Virus record (IMG/VR): IMGVR_UViG_3300036979_000228
Span: 1-43,841 of that record
DNA from: a virus
DNA: 43,841 bases
Direction: 5' to 3' (one strand)
This document shows, in pieces, positions 245-9,700 of the stretch; within the stretch, counting starts at the first letter, position 1, and each line of letters opens with the position of its first letter. The notes under the pieces were generated by a model, which did no database searches, was not told the DNA's origin, and worked only from the letters and a program-made list of their open reading frames with translations. The translations under genes and the position numbers were made by a program.

Positions 245-298
245 GTCGTGACCTTTCTGTTAGTGATGGTTGTTCTCACAACGAGTGGGAACGGGATG

Positions 299-320
299 CC
301 ACTCCCCGTGTGGAGAGTGG
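299..320 (-). other. Stem-loop between two leftward genes
   Basis: CCACTCCCC at 299-307 pairs with GGAGAGTGG at 312-320 (9 bp, one G-U pair when read leftward) around a 4-nt loop. It lies in the 101-bp gap between the stop of the 100-aa gene and the partial gene at the edge. No U-run follows on the minus strand, so it is not a standard intrinsic terminator. It may be an mRNA processing or stability element. Confidence 0.45.
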
Positions 321-345
321 ACACCCGCGCTCACGCGCTAGTTAC

Positions 346-648: not shown

Positions 649-686
649 GGAAGATCCTTTCTGCTCCGTAGAGCGTGACTACTCAA

Positions 687-767
687 CTAGTTGCAGGTAC
701 TCGCTAGCACGCGCTAATCGTCGTACTTGCAATCAGTAGGTGGACGTAGCCAATCCACCTAGTTGCA
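687..767. repeat. Direct repeat pair CTAGTTGCA
   Basis: CTAGTTGCA occurs at 687-695 and 759-767, 72 bp apart. The second copy directly overlaps the right arm of the first hairpin. It is short and could be chance, but lies in the same block as the CGTAG copies and hairpins. Confidence 0.4.
737..761. repeat. Inverted repeat 1 (8-bp stem)
   Basis: TAGGTGGA (737-744) is the exact reverse complement of TCCACCTA (754-761), with a 9-nt loop. It resembles inverted repeat 3 (TAGGTGC / GCACCTA), which also has a 9-nt loop, so the two look like versions of one element. Confidence 0.6.
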
Positions 768-778
768 CGTGTGAGCGG

Positions 779-816
779 GGGAGATGCTCACTACATAGAC
801 GTAGTGAGAATCTCCC
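779..816. repeat. Inverted repeat 2 (15-bp stem, one mismatch)
   Basis: GGGAGAT (779-785) pairs with ATCTCCC (810-816). After a single G-A mismatch, CTCACTAC (787-794) pairs with GTAGTGAG (801-808). The loop is ATAGAC. It is the longest hairpin of the region and is not followed by a T-run on either strand, so it does not look like a terminator. Confidence 0.75.
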
Positions 817-839
817 GAGCACAGCGAGATGATTTCTTG

Positions 840-862
840 TAGGTGCGATAACATTGCACCTA
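840..862. repeat. Inverted repeat 3 (7-bp stem)
   Basis: TAGGTGC (840-846) is the exact reverse complement of GCACCTA (856-862) with a 9-nt loop. It is similar in stem sequence and loop length to inverted repeat 1. Confidence 0.55.
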
Positions 863-876
863 GCCCCGTTGCGTAG

Positions 877-922
877 ACGAATCAAGTCGACAGACCTCCC
901 AAGCCCCCCAGGGTTGATTCGT
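877..922. repeat. Inverted repeat 4 (9-bp arms)
   Basis: ACGAATCAA (877-885) is the exact reverse complement of TTGATTCGT (914-922). The 28-nt spacer contains C-rich sequence and a possible inner CCC/GGG pairing (898-900 with 911-913). Confidence 0.55.
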
Positions 923-999
923 AGAAGCAGGGGAAAGAGGGAATCCTTCTCAAAATCCCATAACTACTAACCGGGTATTCCGGGCTGTTCTCTCTTTCT

Positions 1000-1025
1000 T
1001 CTATATATTCTTCTATACATTAGGA
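1000..1025 (-). promoter_or_regulatory. Possible leftward promoter, AT-rich
   Basis: On the minus strand this stretch reads TATAGA and TATATA within an AT-rich run between the helicase terminator and the downstream genes. No good -35 box was found. It is listed because the 100-aa gene needs a promoter after the terminator; the match is weak. Confidence 0.2.
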
Positions 1026-1063
1026 AGAAAAGATACGGTACTCTAGGTACTGGCCCGCCTACT

Positions 1064-2509: not shown

Positions 2510-2528
2510 GTTATCCTTTCTTTAGGTC

Positions 2529-2558
2529 TTGAAACCTCATTTTTGATTGTACCATAAA
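2529..2558 (+). promoter_or_regulatory. Possible rightward promoter of the virion block
   Basis: TTGAAA (2529-2534) is separated by 18 bp from CATAAA (2553-2558). Alternatively TACCAT (2550-2555) fits a TAnnnT -10 box 6 nt before ATG 2562. Either would give a leaderless or nearly leaderless first mRNA. Matches are partial; the main support is position, since a rightward block of about 31 kb begins here. Confidence 0.3.
2546..2554 (-). promoter_or_regulatory. Leftward promoter for the SF3 helicase (extended -10)
   Basis: Read leftward, TGG-TACAAT matches an extended -10 box (TGn followed by 5 of 6 consensus bases). It lies 36 bp upstream of the helicase ATG, leaving a short leader with a good ribosome-binding site. 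No clear -35 box is present, as is allowed for extended -10 promoters. Confidence 0.45.
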
Positions 2559-3077: not shown

Positions 3078-3662
3078 ATGGCATTCTTCAGTCAAGATCC
3101 AAACATTGGTATTCGCCAAGCCGGTATGGGCGCGTTTATCCCACCAGCGATTAACTCAATGTCCTTCAAAGGAAACGCGGGAGTTAATGCACGCCGCCAA
3201 TCCGCAGGCGATGGCGCTCGCAAGAAACCAAAGGTAGCAAAGGCTGGTGTAACGCCTGGTGTCTTTGGCCCACCCTCTTCGCTTGCAAACCCAGATAGCA
3301 AGCCAAGCAAAACATTTGTGCCAAGAGATCTAATGAAACGCATGCCAGCCCCGGGAGTTTTAATGGCAAAGATGCCGGGAACAGGAGCGCCAGTAACGCC
3401 AACTACAACTGTTGGTGGTGTTCGTATGTCTCGACTTGCTGATGGCATTGTTAAAAACCAAGAACTAGATGATGCATCACTTGCAACATCTATGGCTCTT
3501 GATCCATCCAAGCGCCCACTCAACTTAAACGGTATAGACCCAGAAGACTTCGTTAAGGGTCGAGCAGCTGCTCGAGGCAAGAAGCCAAGTTTTCAATTAG
3601 GTGGAACACTTGATTCGACCAGCCAAACGTTTGGCAATAACCCTGGTATGCGATTCACTTGA
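3078..3662 (+). CDS. Hypothetical protein, probable virion component
   Basis: A 194-aa Pro/Gly/Ala-rich basic protein beginning MAFFSQDPNIGIRQ, with ribosome-binding sequence AAAGGA 6 nt before ATG 3078. It is largely low-complexity and probably disordered, with Pro/Thr-rich stretches around residues 60-110. No known domain was seen. The gene starts 9 bp after the preceding stop and its own stop overlaps the TTG start of the next gene. Its place suggests a structural or ejected protein, but the role is unknown. Confidence 0.7.
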   Translation: MAFFSQDPNIGIRQAGMGAFIPPAINSMSFKGNAGVNARRQSAGDGARKKPKVAKAGVTPGVFGPPSSLANPDSKPSKTFVPRDLMKRMPAPGVLMAKMPGTGAPVTPTTTVGGVRMSRLADGIVKNQELDDASLATSMALDPSKRPLNLNGIDPEDFVKGRAAARGKKPSFQLGGTLDSTSQTFGNNPGMRFT

Positions 3663-7414: not shown

Positions 7415-7736
7415 CATCCACGACGCGTTCTTGCACATCACCTCAATGGACAACATGCAAGCCGCACGCGCCGGTGCTCCTATCCTATTTTCCTTGGGCA
7501 TTGTTGACCCGGGAACCTGGTGGGGCGAAGTATCCGAACTTGGTACCGCCATCTTGGATCGCATCAAAACCAACAACCACAACTTCCACCAGCGGTTTGT
7601 GGACATGGCTATCGAACTCCATGCAACCAGCCCAATGGTTTCAGACCATGTAGTTCTTGCTGCAAGCATTCTTCGTGTAGCGACAACCGAGTTGATTGCC
7701 GTCAAGGGCATGCAACGGCGCATGGTTAACCTTTGA
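7281..7736 (+). CDS. Hypothetical protein immediately upstream of TerL
   Basis: A 151-aa protein beginning MEKQLHNPQRNLYQ if started at ATG 7281. ATG 7275-7280 in the same frame, and ATG 7447, are alternatives. The second half is helical (VSELGTAILDRIKTNNHNFH; SDHVVLAASILRVATTELIA). The stop TGA overlaps the TTG start of TerL (TTGA), which suggests translational coupling. Either this or the preceding gene could be the small terminase subunit. Because the two overlap by 134 nt with both frames plausible, a frameshift fusion cannot be excluded. Confidence 0.6.
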   Translation, partial: AMEKQLHNPQRNLYQASKEVQTQSAKTPLEPLPPSTCHLGDLPPSIHDAFLHITSMDNMQAARAGAPILFSLGIVDPGTWWGEVSELGTAILDRIKTNNHNFHQRFVDMAIELHATSPMVSDHVVLAASILRVATTELIAVKGMQRRMVNL

Positions 7737-9700
7737 TTCCAGTTGCCATCCCGCTGCCTGAAGACGGCAACACTATGTGGCCATTGCCACACGACTATCT
7801 CACGCTTACGCCTGAAGGTCAGCGGCTTGCTCGCGTAAACGCGTGTTCGCAGTGGTTGTTACCCACCAGTGATCTGCGGTTAAAGGCAACGCGGTTTGCT
7901 GGCAGCGTCAACTTCTTTGACCAGTGGTACCTCTATCCGGATTGGGATGAGGAGTTCAACCCATACTTTTACGACGATGATCCGGTAGAACCGCCGGCAG
8001 GACACTTTGCAATCTATCGAATGTGGGCTATGTCACCCCGCTCAATTGCAATTGCACCCCGTGGATTTGCCAAGAGCAACTGTTTCCGCAAGACTGCGCT
8101 GTTGCAAATGCTTACGCGCCCTGCATATTCATTCATTTATGCAACCAGTTCGGTGGATAATGCAGAGCAGACTGGTCAAATCATCAAGAGCCAGTTCATT
8201 GGCAACAAACGAATCTTTGATGACATGGCTCCTGAGTTCCCAGACGGTCGCATTACTCCGCGGCGCGGCGAGGCATCCTTTGGTGTGGAGATGATGTACC
8301 TCAACAACGGCAGTTGGTTCCGCGCCATGAGTGCTGAGAGCCGTCAGCGTGGTGGTCGCCCCCGCGTGTACGCGTTGGATGACCCGGAGTATGACCCAAA
8401 GGCATCGACCAGCATGACCATCCTCCGTTCCTACATGGAGCGGTTGTTGTTCAAGGTGGTCATGCCCATGATCACCCGTAAGGACACAAGCGTGCGGTGG
8501 TTGGCTACGTTTGTGAGTCGCCGTCACTACGCGTGGCACGCCATGATGACCGAGCTGTTGGCTGACGGTAGCAAGATTGCCAAGGACCCCCGCTTTGACC
8601 AGTGGGCTCGTCTGATCCTGCGTGCCGAGTACGACGACAATGGTGTGCAGAAGAGCACTTGGCCGTCTATGTGGCCGCTTGACCGCAAAGCCCGTGACGC
8701 TGATGATGCCAACGAAGGTCGTGTTAGTCTCCAAGAAATCAAGGAAATGATCGGTACTCACAACTACATGGCTGAGTATCTAGCTCAGCCGGGTGAGTCA
8801 GAAGACGTGTACTTTGGGGAGATCACCCAAGAGAAACACGGGTGGTGGCTAGAAAGCCCCGACCTCAACAGCGACCTCGATCCCTATTCCTCAACTGCCA
8901 CTATCTGCTGGCGGGGCAAAGGAGACGTCATTGAGAAGTTGCCACTGCCCGACTTCCTTACTCATCGCATCAAACTGTTTGCCACAGTCGACACCAGCTA
9001 CACGGCAACCAGTGATAGTGACTTTAAGGTCTGCACGGTCATGGGTTACGACCCTGTAGACGCAGTTCTCTTTGTCCTAGACACTTGGGGAGGTCAGGTT
9101 CGGGAGCCAATCCTCATCGAACACGCCTTCAAGATGATCACCAAGTGGCGCGTACCGGCTGTTCATGTCGAGGTCGTACGGCAGTCGTTCAGTCTGTATG
9201 CGGCCATGGAGTCCATGGTAAAGCAGCGCGCCGACCAGATTACGGGCATGACCCCACCGAGGATCATCAAGTTGAATCCGGGAGTCATGGACAAGACCAG
9301 CAAGATCAGCGCACTCAACTACCGGTTTGAACACGGGTTAATCAAGTTGCCAACGTGGCGACGGGGGTCTCAGCCGTGGCGTTCTGTCTTTGAGCAGTTT
9401 GAGCAGTTCAATCCGGATGCTGAAAGTGGTGGTCTGGCCCACGATGACTTCATCGACACCATAGCCATGAGCATGTTTGTCGTTCGTGGTCGTATGGAGA
9501 GGTCGGCTATTAAGGTTGATGGCGAAGATGACACCTTGGTTGTTGAAAATCCGATGGAAGAAATTGCCAATGGGAACGTCATTGATAAGAAATACGGGAT
9601 CCACATTGCCGAGCTGATGAACCTAAACGGCATTTCGGTTCAAGATGCACTCGGTATGATGAAGGAACCAGTTCCACAAATCGGAGGATCCCGTGTCTGA
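7733..9700 (+). CDS. terL: Terminase large subunit (packaging ATPase and nuclease)
   Basis: A 655-aa motor that cuts concatemers and drives DNA into the prohead. The ATPase domain has the terminase-style Walker A APRGFAKS (about 108-115), Walker B VYALDDPE (212-219) and a coupling-type segment at SAESRQRGGRP (200-209). The RNase H-like nuclease domain shows ATVDTSYT (D420), VHVEVV (E480) and HDDFIDT (D571/D572). Length suits the family. The start is taken as TTG 7733, overlapping the previous stop; ATG 7775 (MWPLPHDY) is an alternative. It is followed by an overlapping 87-aa gene and the portal. Confidence 0.93.
   Translation: MIPVAIPLPEDGNTMWPLPHDYLTLTPEGQRLARVNACSQWLLPTSDLRLKATRFAGSVNFFDQWYLYPDWDEEFNPYFYDDDPVEPPAGHFAIYRMWAMSPRSIAIAPRGFAKSNCFRKTALLQMLTRPAYSFIYATSSVDNAEQTGQIIKSQFIGNKRIFDDMAPEFPDGRITPRRGEASFGVEMMYLNNGSWFRAMSAESRQRGGRPRVYALDDPEYDPKASTSMTILRSYMERLLFKVVMPMITRKDTSVRWLATFVSRRHYAWHAMMTELLADGSKIAKDPRFDQWARLILRAEYDDNGVQKSTWPSMWPLDRKARDADDANEGRVSLQEIKEMIGTHNYMAEYLAQPGESEDVYFGEITQEKHGWWLESPDLNSDLDPYSSTATICWRGKGDVIEKLPLPDFLTHRIKLFATVDTSYTATSDSDFKVCTVMGYDPVDAVLFVLDTWGGQVREPILIEHAFKMITKWRVPAVHVEVVRQSFSLYAAMESMVKQRADQITGMTPPRIIKLNPGVMDKTSKISALNYRFEHGLIKLPTWRRGSQPWRSVFEQFEQFNPDAESGGLAHDDFIDTIAMSMFVVRGRMERSAIKVDGEDDTLVVENPMEEIANGNVIDKKYGIHIAELMNLNGISVQDALGMMKEPVPQIGGSRV

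Follow-up and report, generated by a model that had tools for sequence, protein, structure and literature searches.

We find that the one long gene-free gap in the viral DNA analysed here (an IMG/VR virus record of 43,841 bp, hereinafter designated the window) probably combines two elements, a replication origin core at positions 898-1050 and a structured 5′ leader of an early mRNA at ~665-895. The origin most likely resembles those of staphylococcal pathogenicity islands (SaPIs) and SV40, with opposed short repeats and an AT-rich stretch behind a helicase gene. An earlier note on this DNA had offered an origin, a packaging site or an RNA leader for a hairpin array in the gap; the evidence below favours an origin for 898-1050 and a leader for the hairpins, and speaks against packaging.

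The early genes of the window, encoding an SF3 helicase, polymerase A, an exonuclease and a Sak4-like protein, occupy 1-2509 and 33.7-43.8 kb on the minus strand, and the late genes, including that for the large terminase (7733-9700), lie on the plus strand from 2547 to 33.7 kb. Complete relatives measure 49-54 kb, so several kb of small early genes are missing from the window. At 49-54 kb and with a large terminase, DNA polymerase A and a Sak4-like protein, these are genomes of tailed phages and not of phage satellites. Among 17 late or plus-strand proteins scanned (window 2547-33734), only the large terminase has a PHROG match, indicating that the lineage is poorly covered by databases.

The gap (649-1108) separates the helicase gene (1109-2509) from the next early gene (346-648) and is the sole gap above 150 bp in the window when ORFs of at least 45 aa are counted, in agreement with the earlier note. 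Both flanking genes are encoded on the minus strand, an orientation which that note overlooked, and the gap must therefore be read on this strand, as are all gap features described below. In this direction the helicase stop is followed by a terminator, the core, the leader, a ribosome-binding site and the small early gene. The terminator (1064-1099, TGCCCCTCTGGTGCCCATAAAGCCCAGGGGGGTTTT), likewise overlooked, is recognized from its sequence, which includes a T-run, and its fold (–21.4 kcal/mol) as the intrinsic terminator of the helicase transcript; most relatives carry a hairpin and T-run at the matching place with a different stem sequence. The ribosome-binding site GCAGAAAGGATC (653-664), assigned from sequence and comparison with relatives, precedes a 100-aa early protein of unassigned function, the first gene after the leader, which is replaced by other small proteins in relatives.

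The best conserved part of the gap is 898-1050, which escaped the earlier note; it lies mostly outside the hairpin array and overlaps only one of the four repeats listed there (877-922). Two GTACC-type pentamer pairs in opposite orientation flank an AT-rich tract and are followed by three boxes, AATTyTgAkA, CTTTC and GGGGGCY (hereinafter designated D, E and F). The left arm GTACCTAGAGTACC (1037-1050), defined by alignment of relatives, contains two GTACC 9 bp apart and follows the pattern GTACC-n4-GTACC. The 55-bp spacer (982-1036; 67% AT), the proposed melting region, includes TATATA (1002-1007) and a pyrimidine/purine palindrome TTCTTCCTAATGTATAGAAGAA (1008-1029); the corresponding tract in relatives is 52-61 bp long and 58-83% AT, usually with both of these elements. 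The right arm (968-981) follows the pattern GGTAY-nn-CTGGTAC in the alignment but is degenerate in the window clade (GGAATACCCGGTTA; GGTAYNNCTGGTAC in others): it has lost several consensus bases and scores 4.3 bits against a weight matrix at the expected spacing, and the window arm pair ranks second best in the window genome.

The D box GGATTTTGAGAAGG (945-958), the E box CTTTCCCC (930-937) and the F box GGGGGGCTTGGG (898-909; family rGGGGgCY) complete the core. About 20 variable bases separate E from F in relatives, and the D-to-F spacing is 47-51 nt in all of them, though the sequence between varies. Beyond the F box, relatives contain variable hairpin-rich DNA, the ribosome-binding site and a small gene that differs from one to another. 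The arms themselves hardly vary among relatives; their spacing ranges from 66 to 75 bp and thus shows no strict helical phasing, which, like the eroded right arm of the window, counts against an origin. Genomes of 37.5% to 62% GC all keep the core, suggesting that a protein of the phage, and not a sigma factor of the host, probably reads it.

Protein searches returned 26 helicase-bearing contigs (one of them incomplete), comprising a close group with 84-99% helicase identity, one contig at 76%, a group at 65-66% and singles at 59, 58 and 48%. All of those with downstream DNA have a gap 3′ of the helicase gene, and each one examined contains the core, down to 48% identity; with the relatives found by the pattern scans below, the core stands 3′ of an SF3 helicase gene down to 42% identity. 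It lies ~60-85 nt after the helicase stop in the window and the close group, 90-114 nt after it in L070 and L073, and ~260-370 nt after it, with a small ORF or spacer between, in L057, L093, L112 and the 66% group. The 65-66% group (L008-L023) carries an extra ORF of ~85-90 aa, ending in GEMD, between helicase and terminator, which is absent from the window.

The link between core and helicase is also seen when the DNA pattern alone is used. The full arm pair occurs once per genome, exclusively in the gap, in four complete genomes and never in 100 shuffled genomes. When 2.9 million viral contigs were scanned blind for the arm pair, without protein information, 89 loci emerged, 18 of which lie beside this helicase family. 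Among these are L070/L101 and L073 (44% helicase identity), L112 (51%) and the fragment L093 (42%), all missed by the protein searches; in these newcomers there are additional GTACC pairs, and the D-E-F module is again present, its D-to-F spacing being 49-50. The terminases of the newly found phages are homologous as well (51-57%), indicating a single phage lineage in which helicase, repeats and module are linked. The D-E-F pattern alone, searched in the same 2.9 million contigs, yielded six loci, namely five known relatives and the new L160, which starts with the end of a homologous helicase gene (E 4e-12) and continues with GTACC repeats and then the D-E-F module.

Of 11 inspected arm-pattern loci without the helicase, 10 fall within called ORFs, for the most part in repetitive coding sequence; a cruder open-frame count did not separate arm-scan loci with the helicase from those without. 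L118 has a helicase-like gene 2.3 kb away and was left out of the count. L043 matches the 17-mer GGGAATTTTGAGAGGGA exactly, but it is AT-rich and shows no core by eye, and the match is probably due to chance in a collection this large. Separately, GTACC repeats are more numerous in L070, L073, L093 and L160 (as many as 10 within 400 bp) than in the window, and the window clade may thus have a reduced form of the site.

The earlier note had placed the array next to an SF3 helicase, and profile searches bear this out: PHROG primase/helicase families match the 466-aa product at E-values down to 5e-48, and Pfam assigns DUF5906. The protein is of the D5/P4 type, lacks a fused primase domain and is our proposed initiator. 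Its profile has a sole sequence match in the PDB, the SaPI5 primase-helicase (7OLA, E 7.7e-13), and the best Foldseek matches of a low-confidence helicase model are SaPI5 and poxvirus D5/E5. GenBank phages show no DNA similarity to the window, and helicase relatives there are at most ~30% identical; a search of bacterial and archaeal genomes found none.

The SV40 core origin has four pentamers, arranged as two opposed pairs. The site described here shares with SV40 and its large T antigen the opposed pentamer pairs, AT-rich and palindromic DNA and an SF3 helicase, but its arms flank a 52-61 bp AT-rich tract, whereas the SV40 arms abut in the centre. Phage P4 offers a second parallel, as its alpha protein, acting with ori and crr, is an SF3 initiator helicase in a phage-related element; unlike here, the primase is fused to the helicase, the iterons are longer and there are two separate sites. 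The putative origin of SCCmec Cch2 is intergenic, lies downstream of a D5-type helicase gene and has pentamer iterons bound by the C-terminal domain of the protein, while the SV40 helicase recognizes DNA by its N-terminal domain (PMC7581432). Cch2 thus resembles the present site in the placement of pentamer iterons, but its three iterons are direct repeats rather than opposed pairs.

The closest likeness is to the origins of SaPIs and other phage-inducible islands (PICIs), which lie directly downstream of rep and have an AT-rich region with an iteron set on either side (PMC6092414, PMC7581432, PMC9894130). These origins are described as a "mirror" of SV40, with opposed repeats that load head-to-head hexamers (PMC9894130), and their organization is common to PICIs and reported in "no other known bacterial replicon" (PMC6092414). 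As in SaPIbov1, SaPI5 and E. coli PICIs, the site here directly follows the 3′ end of a gene for an SF3-type Rep helicase, most relatives have two short-repeat sets on the flanks of an AT-rich region (the left set of the window is intact, its right set degenerate) and the helicase is homologous (SaPI5, as above). In contrast to PICIs, the genomes belong to tailed phages of ~50 kb that encode a terminase and polymerase A of their own, the repeats are GTACC pentamer pairs, an extra D-E-F module with fixed spacing is present and the helicase has no fused primase domain.

From the observed layout, its conservation and spacing, the helicase link and the homology to SaPI5 Rep, we infer how such an origin might work. 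The SF3 helicase encoded just upstream would bind the GTACC-type pentamer pairs, probably via its C-terminal domain like SaPI Rep, and the opposed arms would bring a pair of hexamers into a head-to-head arrangement on the AT-rich, palindromic tract. This tract would melt, and bidirectional or unidirectional synthesis would begin nearby. The D-E-F module beside the right arm may be a further origin element, for instance for priming or as the site of a second protein; alternatively, a phage factor could use the boxes as its promoter. Tentatively, we go further and suggest that a lineage of ~50-kb tailed phages uses a PICI/SV40-like origin, in which GTACC pairs load a double hexamer of a stand-alone SF3 helicase and AATTyTgAkA-CTTTC-GGGGGCY is an origin element of a new class, determining where synthesis starts or which way it runs. 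If true, the PICI-like design is wider than PICIs, which hints at where the satellites obtained it, and the lineage offers a bacterial system in which to study SV40-like head-to-head helicase loading. The D-E-F spacing, kept within a few bases over ~58% helicase divergence, is unexplained and directly testable.

The main rival to an origin, which we consider unlikely, is that the core is a regulated promoter/operator of the early operon, with TATATA as the –10 element, the GTACC arms bound by a phage regulator, D-E-F exerting further control and no origin at all. Because the core stands between the helicase terminator and the early genes, the early promoter must lie in this region, and part of the conservation may reflect a promoter or operator. 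Moreover, TATATA is constant in the 66% group, several members of which have a TTGACC/GTGACC-like hexamer 16-18 nt upstream. However, neither this –35-like hexamer nor its spacing is conserved among relatives, and a sigma-70 consensus scan of the gap (–35 and –10 at 16-18 nt) detects no promoter. In L057, a sigma-70-like promoter of its own (TTGCAA-17-TAAAAT) is located well downstream of the core and apart from it. The layout is kept over a 25-point GC range, and a two-arm site found once per genome is unusual for a regulator.

We now turn from the origin core to the leader. All four inverted repeats that the earlier note reported within 186 bp are present. The first has 8-bp arms and a 9-nt loop (737-761), and hairpins with another stem sequence stand at the same place in L002, L004 and L005. 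The main hairpin (779-816) pairs 8 + 7 bp around one mismatch with a 6-nt loop; relatives keep the loop GTCTAT and alter the stem on both sides. The third (840-862; 7-bp arms, 9-nt loop) has been retained by L003, the nearest relative, alone. The fourth (877-922; 9-bp arms, 28-nt loop) encloses the F box. A further small hairpin, TAGC-GCGT-GCTA (705-716), has an invariant apical part and a variable lower stem in close relatives. In 500 dinucleotide shuffles of 649-1108, such repeats number 0.65 on average, and no shuffle reaches the observed five, or four within 186 bp. The minus strand of the whole gap folds better than all 100 shuffles (z = –4.7); the single-hairpin z-scores are –6.6 (772-823), –4.0 (735-763), –2.7 (838-864) and only –1.3 (868-931).

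The compensatory stem changes that the earlier note proposed to look for appear in close relatives for 779-816, 737-761 and 705-716, as judged from separate folds of five sequences rather than a formal covariation count, but not in the 66%-identity group. Members of that group instead have strong hairpins of unrelated sequence at this place, the one in L008 reaching 15 bp, and these stop 51-58 nt short of the start codon; inspection by eye shows no large hairpin in L057, an AT-rich relative. The next early genes are also preceded by ~100-nt spacers that combine a strong hairpin with the ribosome-binding site GAAAGG (window 285-330, minus strand; 2336-2437, 2750-2849 and 3255-3354 in rotated G003), and each early gene of the lineage may thus have a structured leader. 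Because the stems covary in close relatives, give way to unrelated hairpins in the 66% group and have counterparts before the next early genes, the three hairpins and those near the ribosome-binding site appear to fit an mRNA leader and not the origin itself. Lying between the D-E-F module and the ribosome-binding site, they may act as stability or attenuation structures in early mRNA, attenuation being suggested by a T-run after the hairpin in some relatives (L022).

The five copies of CGTAG that the earlier note singled out are likewise present at the positions it gave (667, 745, 800, 872 and 920), but a role as a meaningful repeat is not supported. Compared with an expected 0.47 on that strand, five seems high, yet the commonest pentamer of any kind reaches five in 11% of shuffles, and all five copies are kept only in L003, with one or two in the others. 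CGTAG therefore carries no evidence, and its copies are probably accidental. Another motif of the variable part, GTTATCGGAC, is found in 9 of 17 regions versus 7-8 in shuffles, which is only suggestive; it or its complement occurs, for example, at window 840-862 and in L013, L022 and L057 (complement/motif twice in L057).

The strong minus-strand fold, the pairing retained through two-sided changes in close relatives and the similar hairpins before the following early genes could also mean that the gap in its entirety acts as a structured RNA leader or a non-coding RNA, its conservation reflecting RNA structure, but we regard this as very improbable. The best conserved part keeps sequence rather than structure: no consensus RNA structure for D-E-F emerges across 18 sequences, and the arms are nearly invariant. 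In addition, hairpin sequences are unrelated between groups, an Rfam search of the region gives no match above chance and ARAGORN predicts no tRNA or tmRNA. A DNA packaging site (pac or cos), for which this sole large non-coding region might be a candidate, is scarcely credible, as the large terminase gene is on the other strand and several kb off, the conserved element is tied to the helicase, and one relative circularizes via a 127-bp assembly overlap, implying no fixed end at the gap.

Returning to the origin core, strand composition, which the earlier note proposed as a check, agrees in part. The cumulative GC skew has its maximum in the gap in five genomes and within 400 bp of it in two. 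At fourfold sites on the helicase-forward strand of these seven genomes (window to 65% identity), the skew is +0.24 to +0.78 in the helicase gene and mostly about –0.2 to –0.8 in early genes on the far side of the gap, though these are read in the helicase direction. The switch predicted for three distant complete genomes of the lineage is absent, with helicase values of –0.12 to –0.15, and, for forks starting at the gap, the sign is the reverse of what a typical G-rich leading strand would give. In view of both points, we downgrade the skew to weak support. As an observation in its own right, the helicase synonymous-site skew is opposite to that of nearly all other same-strand early genes (34-43.8 kb and 346-648) in the seven genomes. 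At its other end, the helicase gene is divergent from the first late gene, the two being only ~20-38 bp apart (window 2510-2546; G003 44938-44956), which requires promoters that are either very compact or located within genes.
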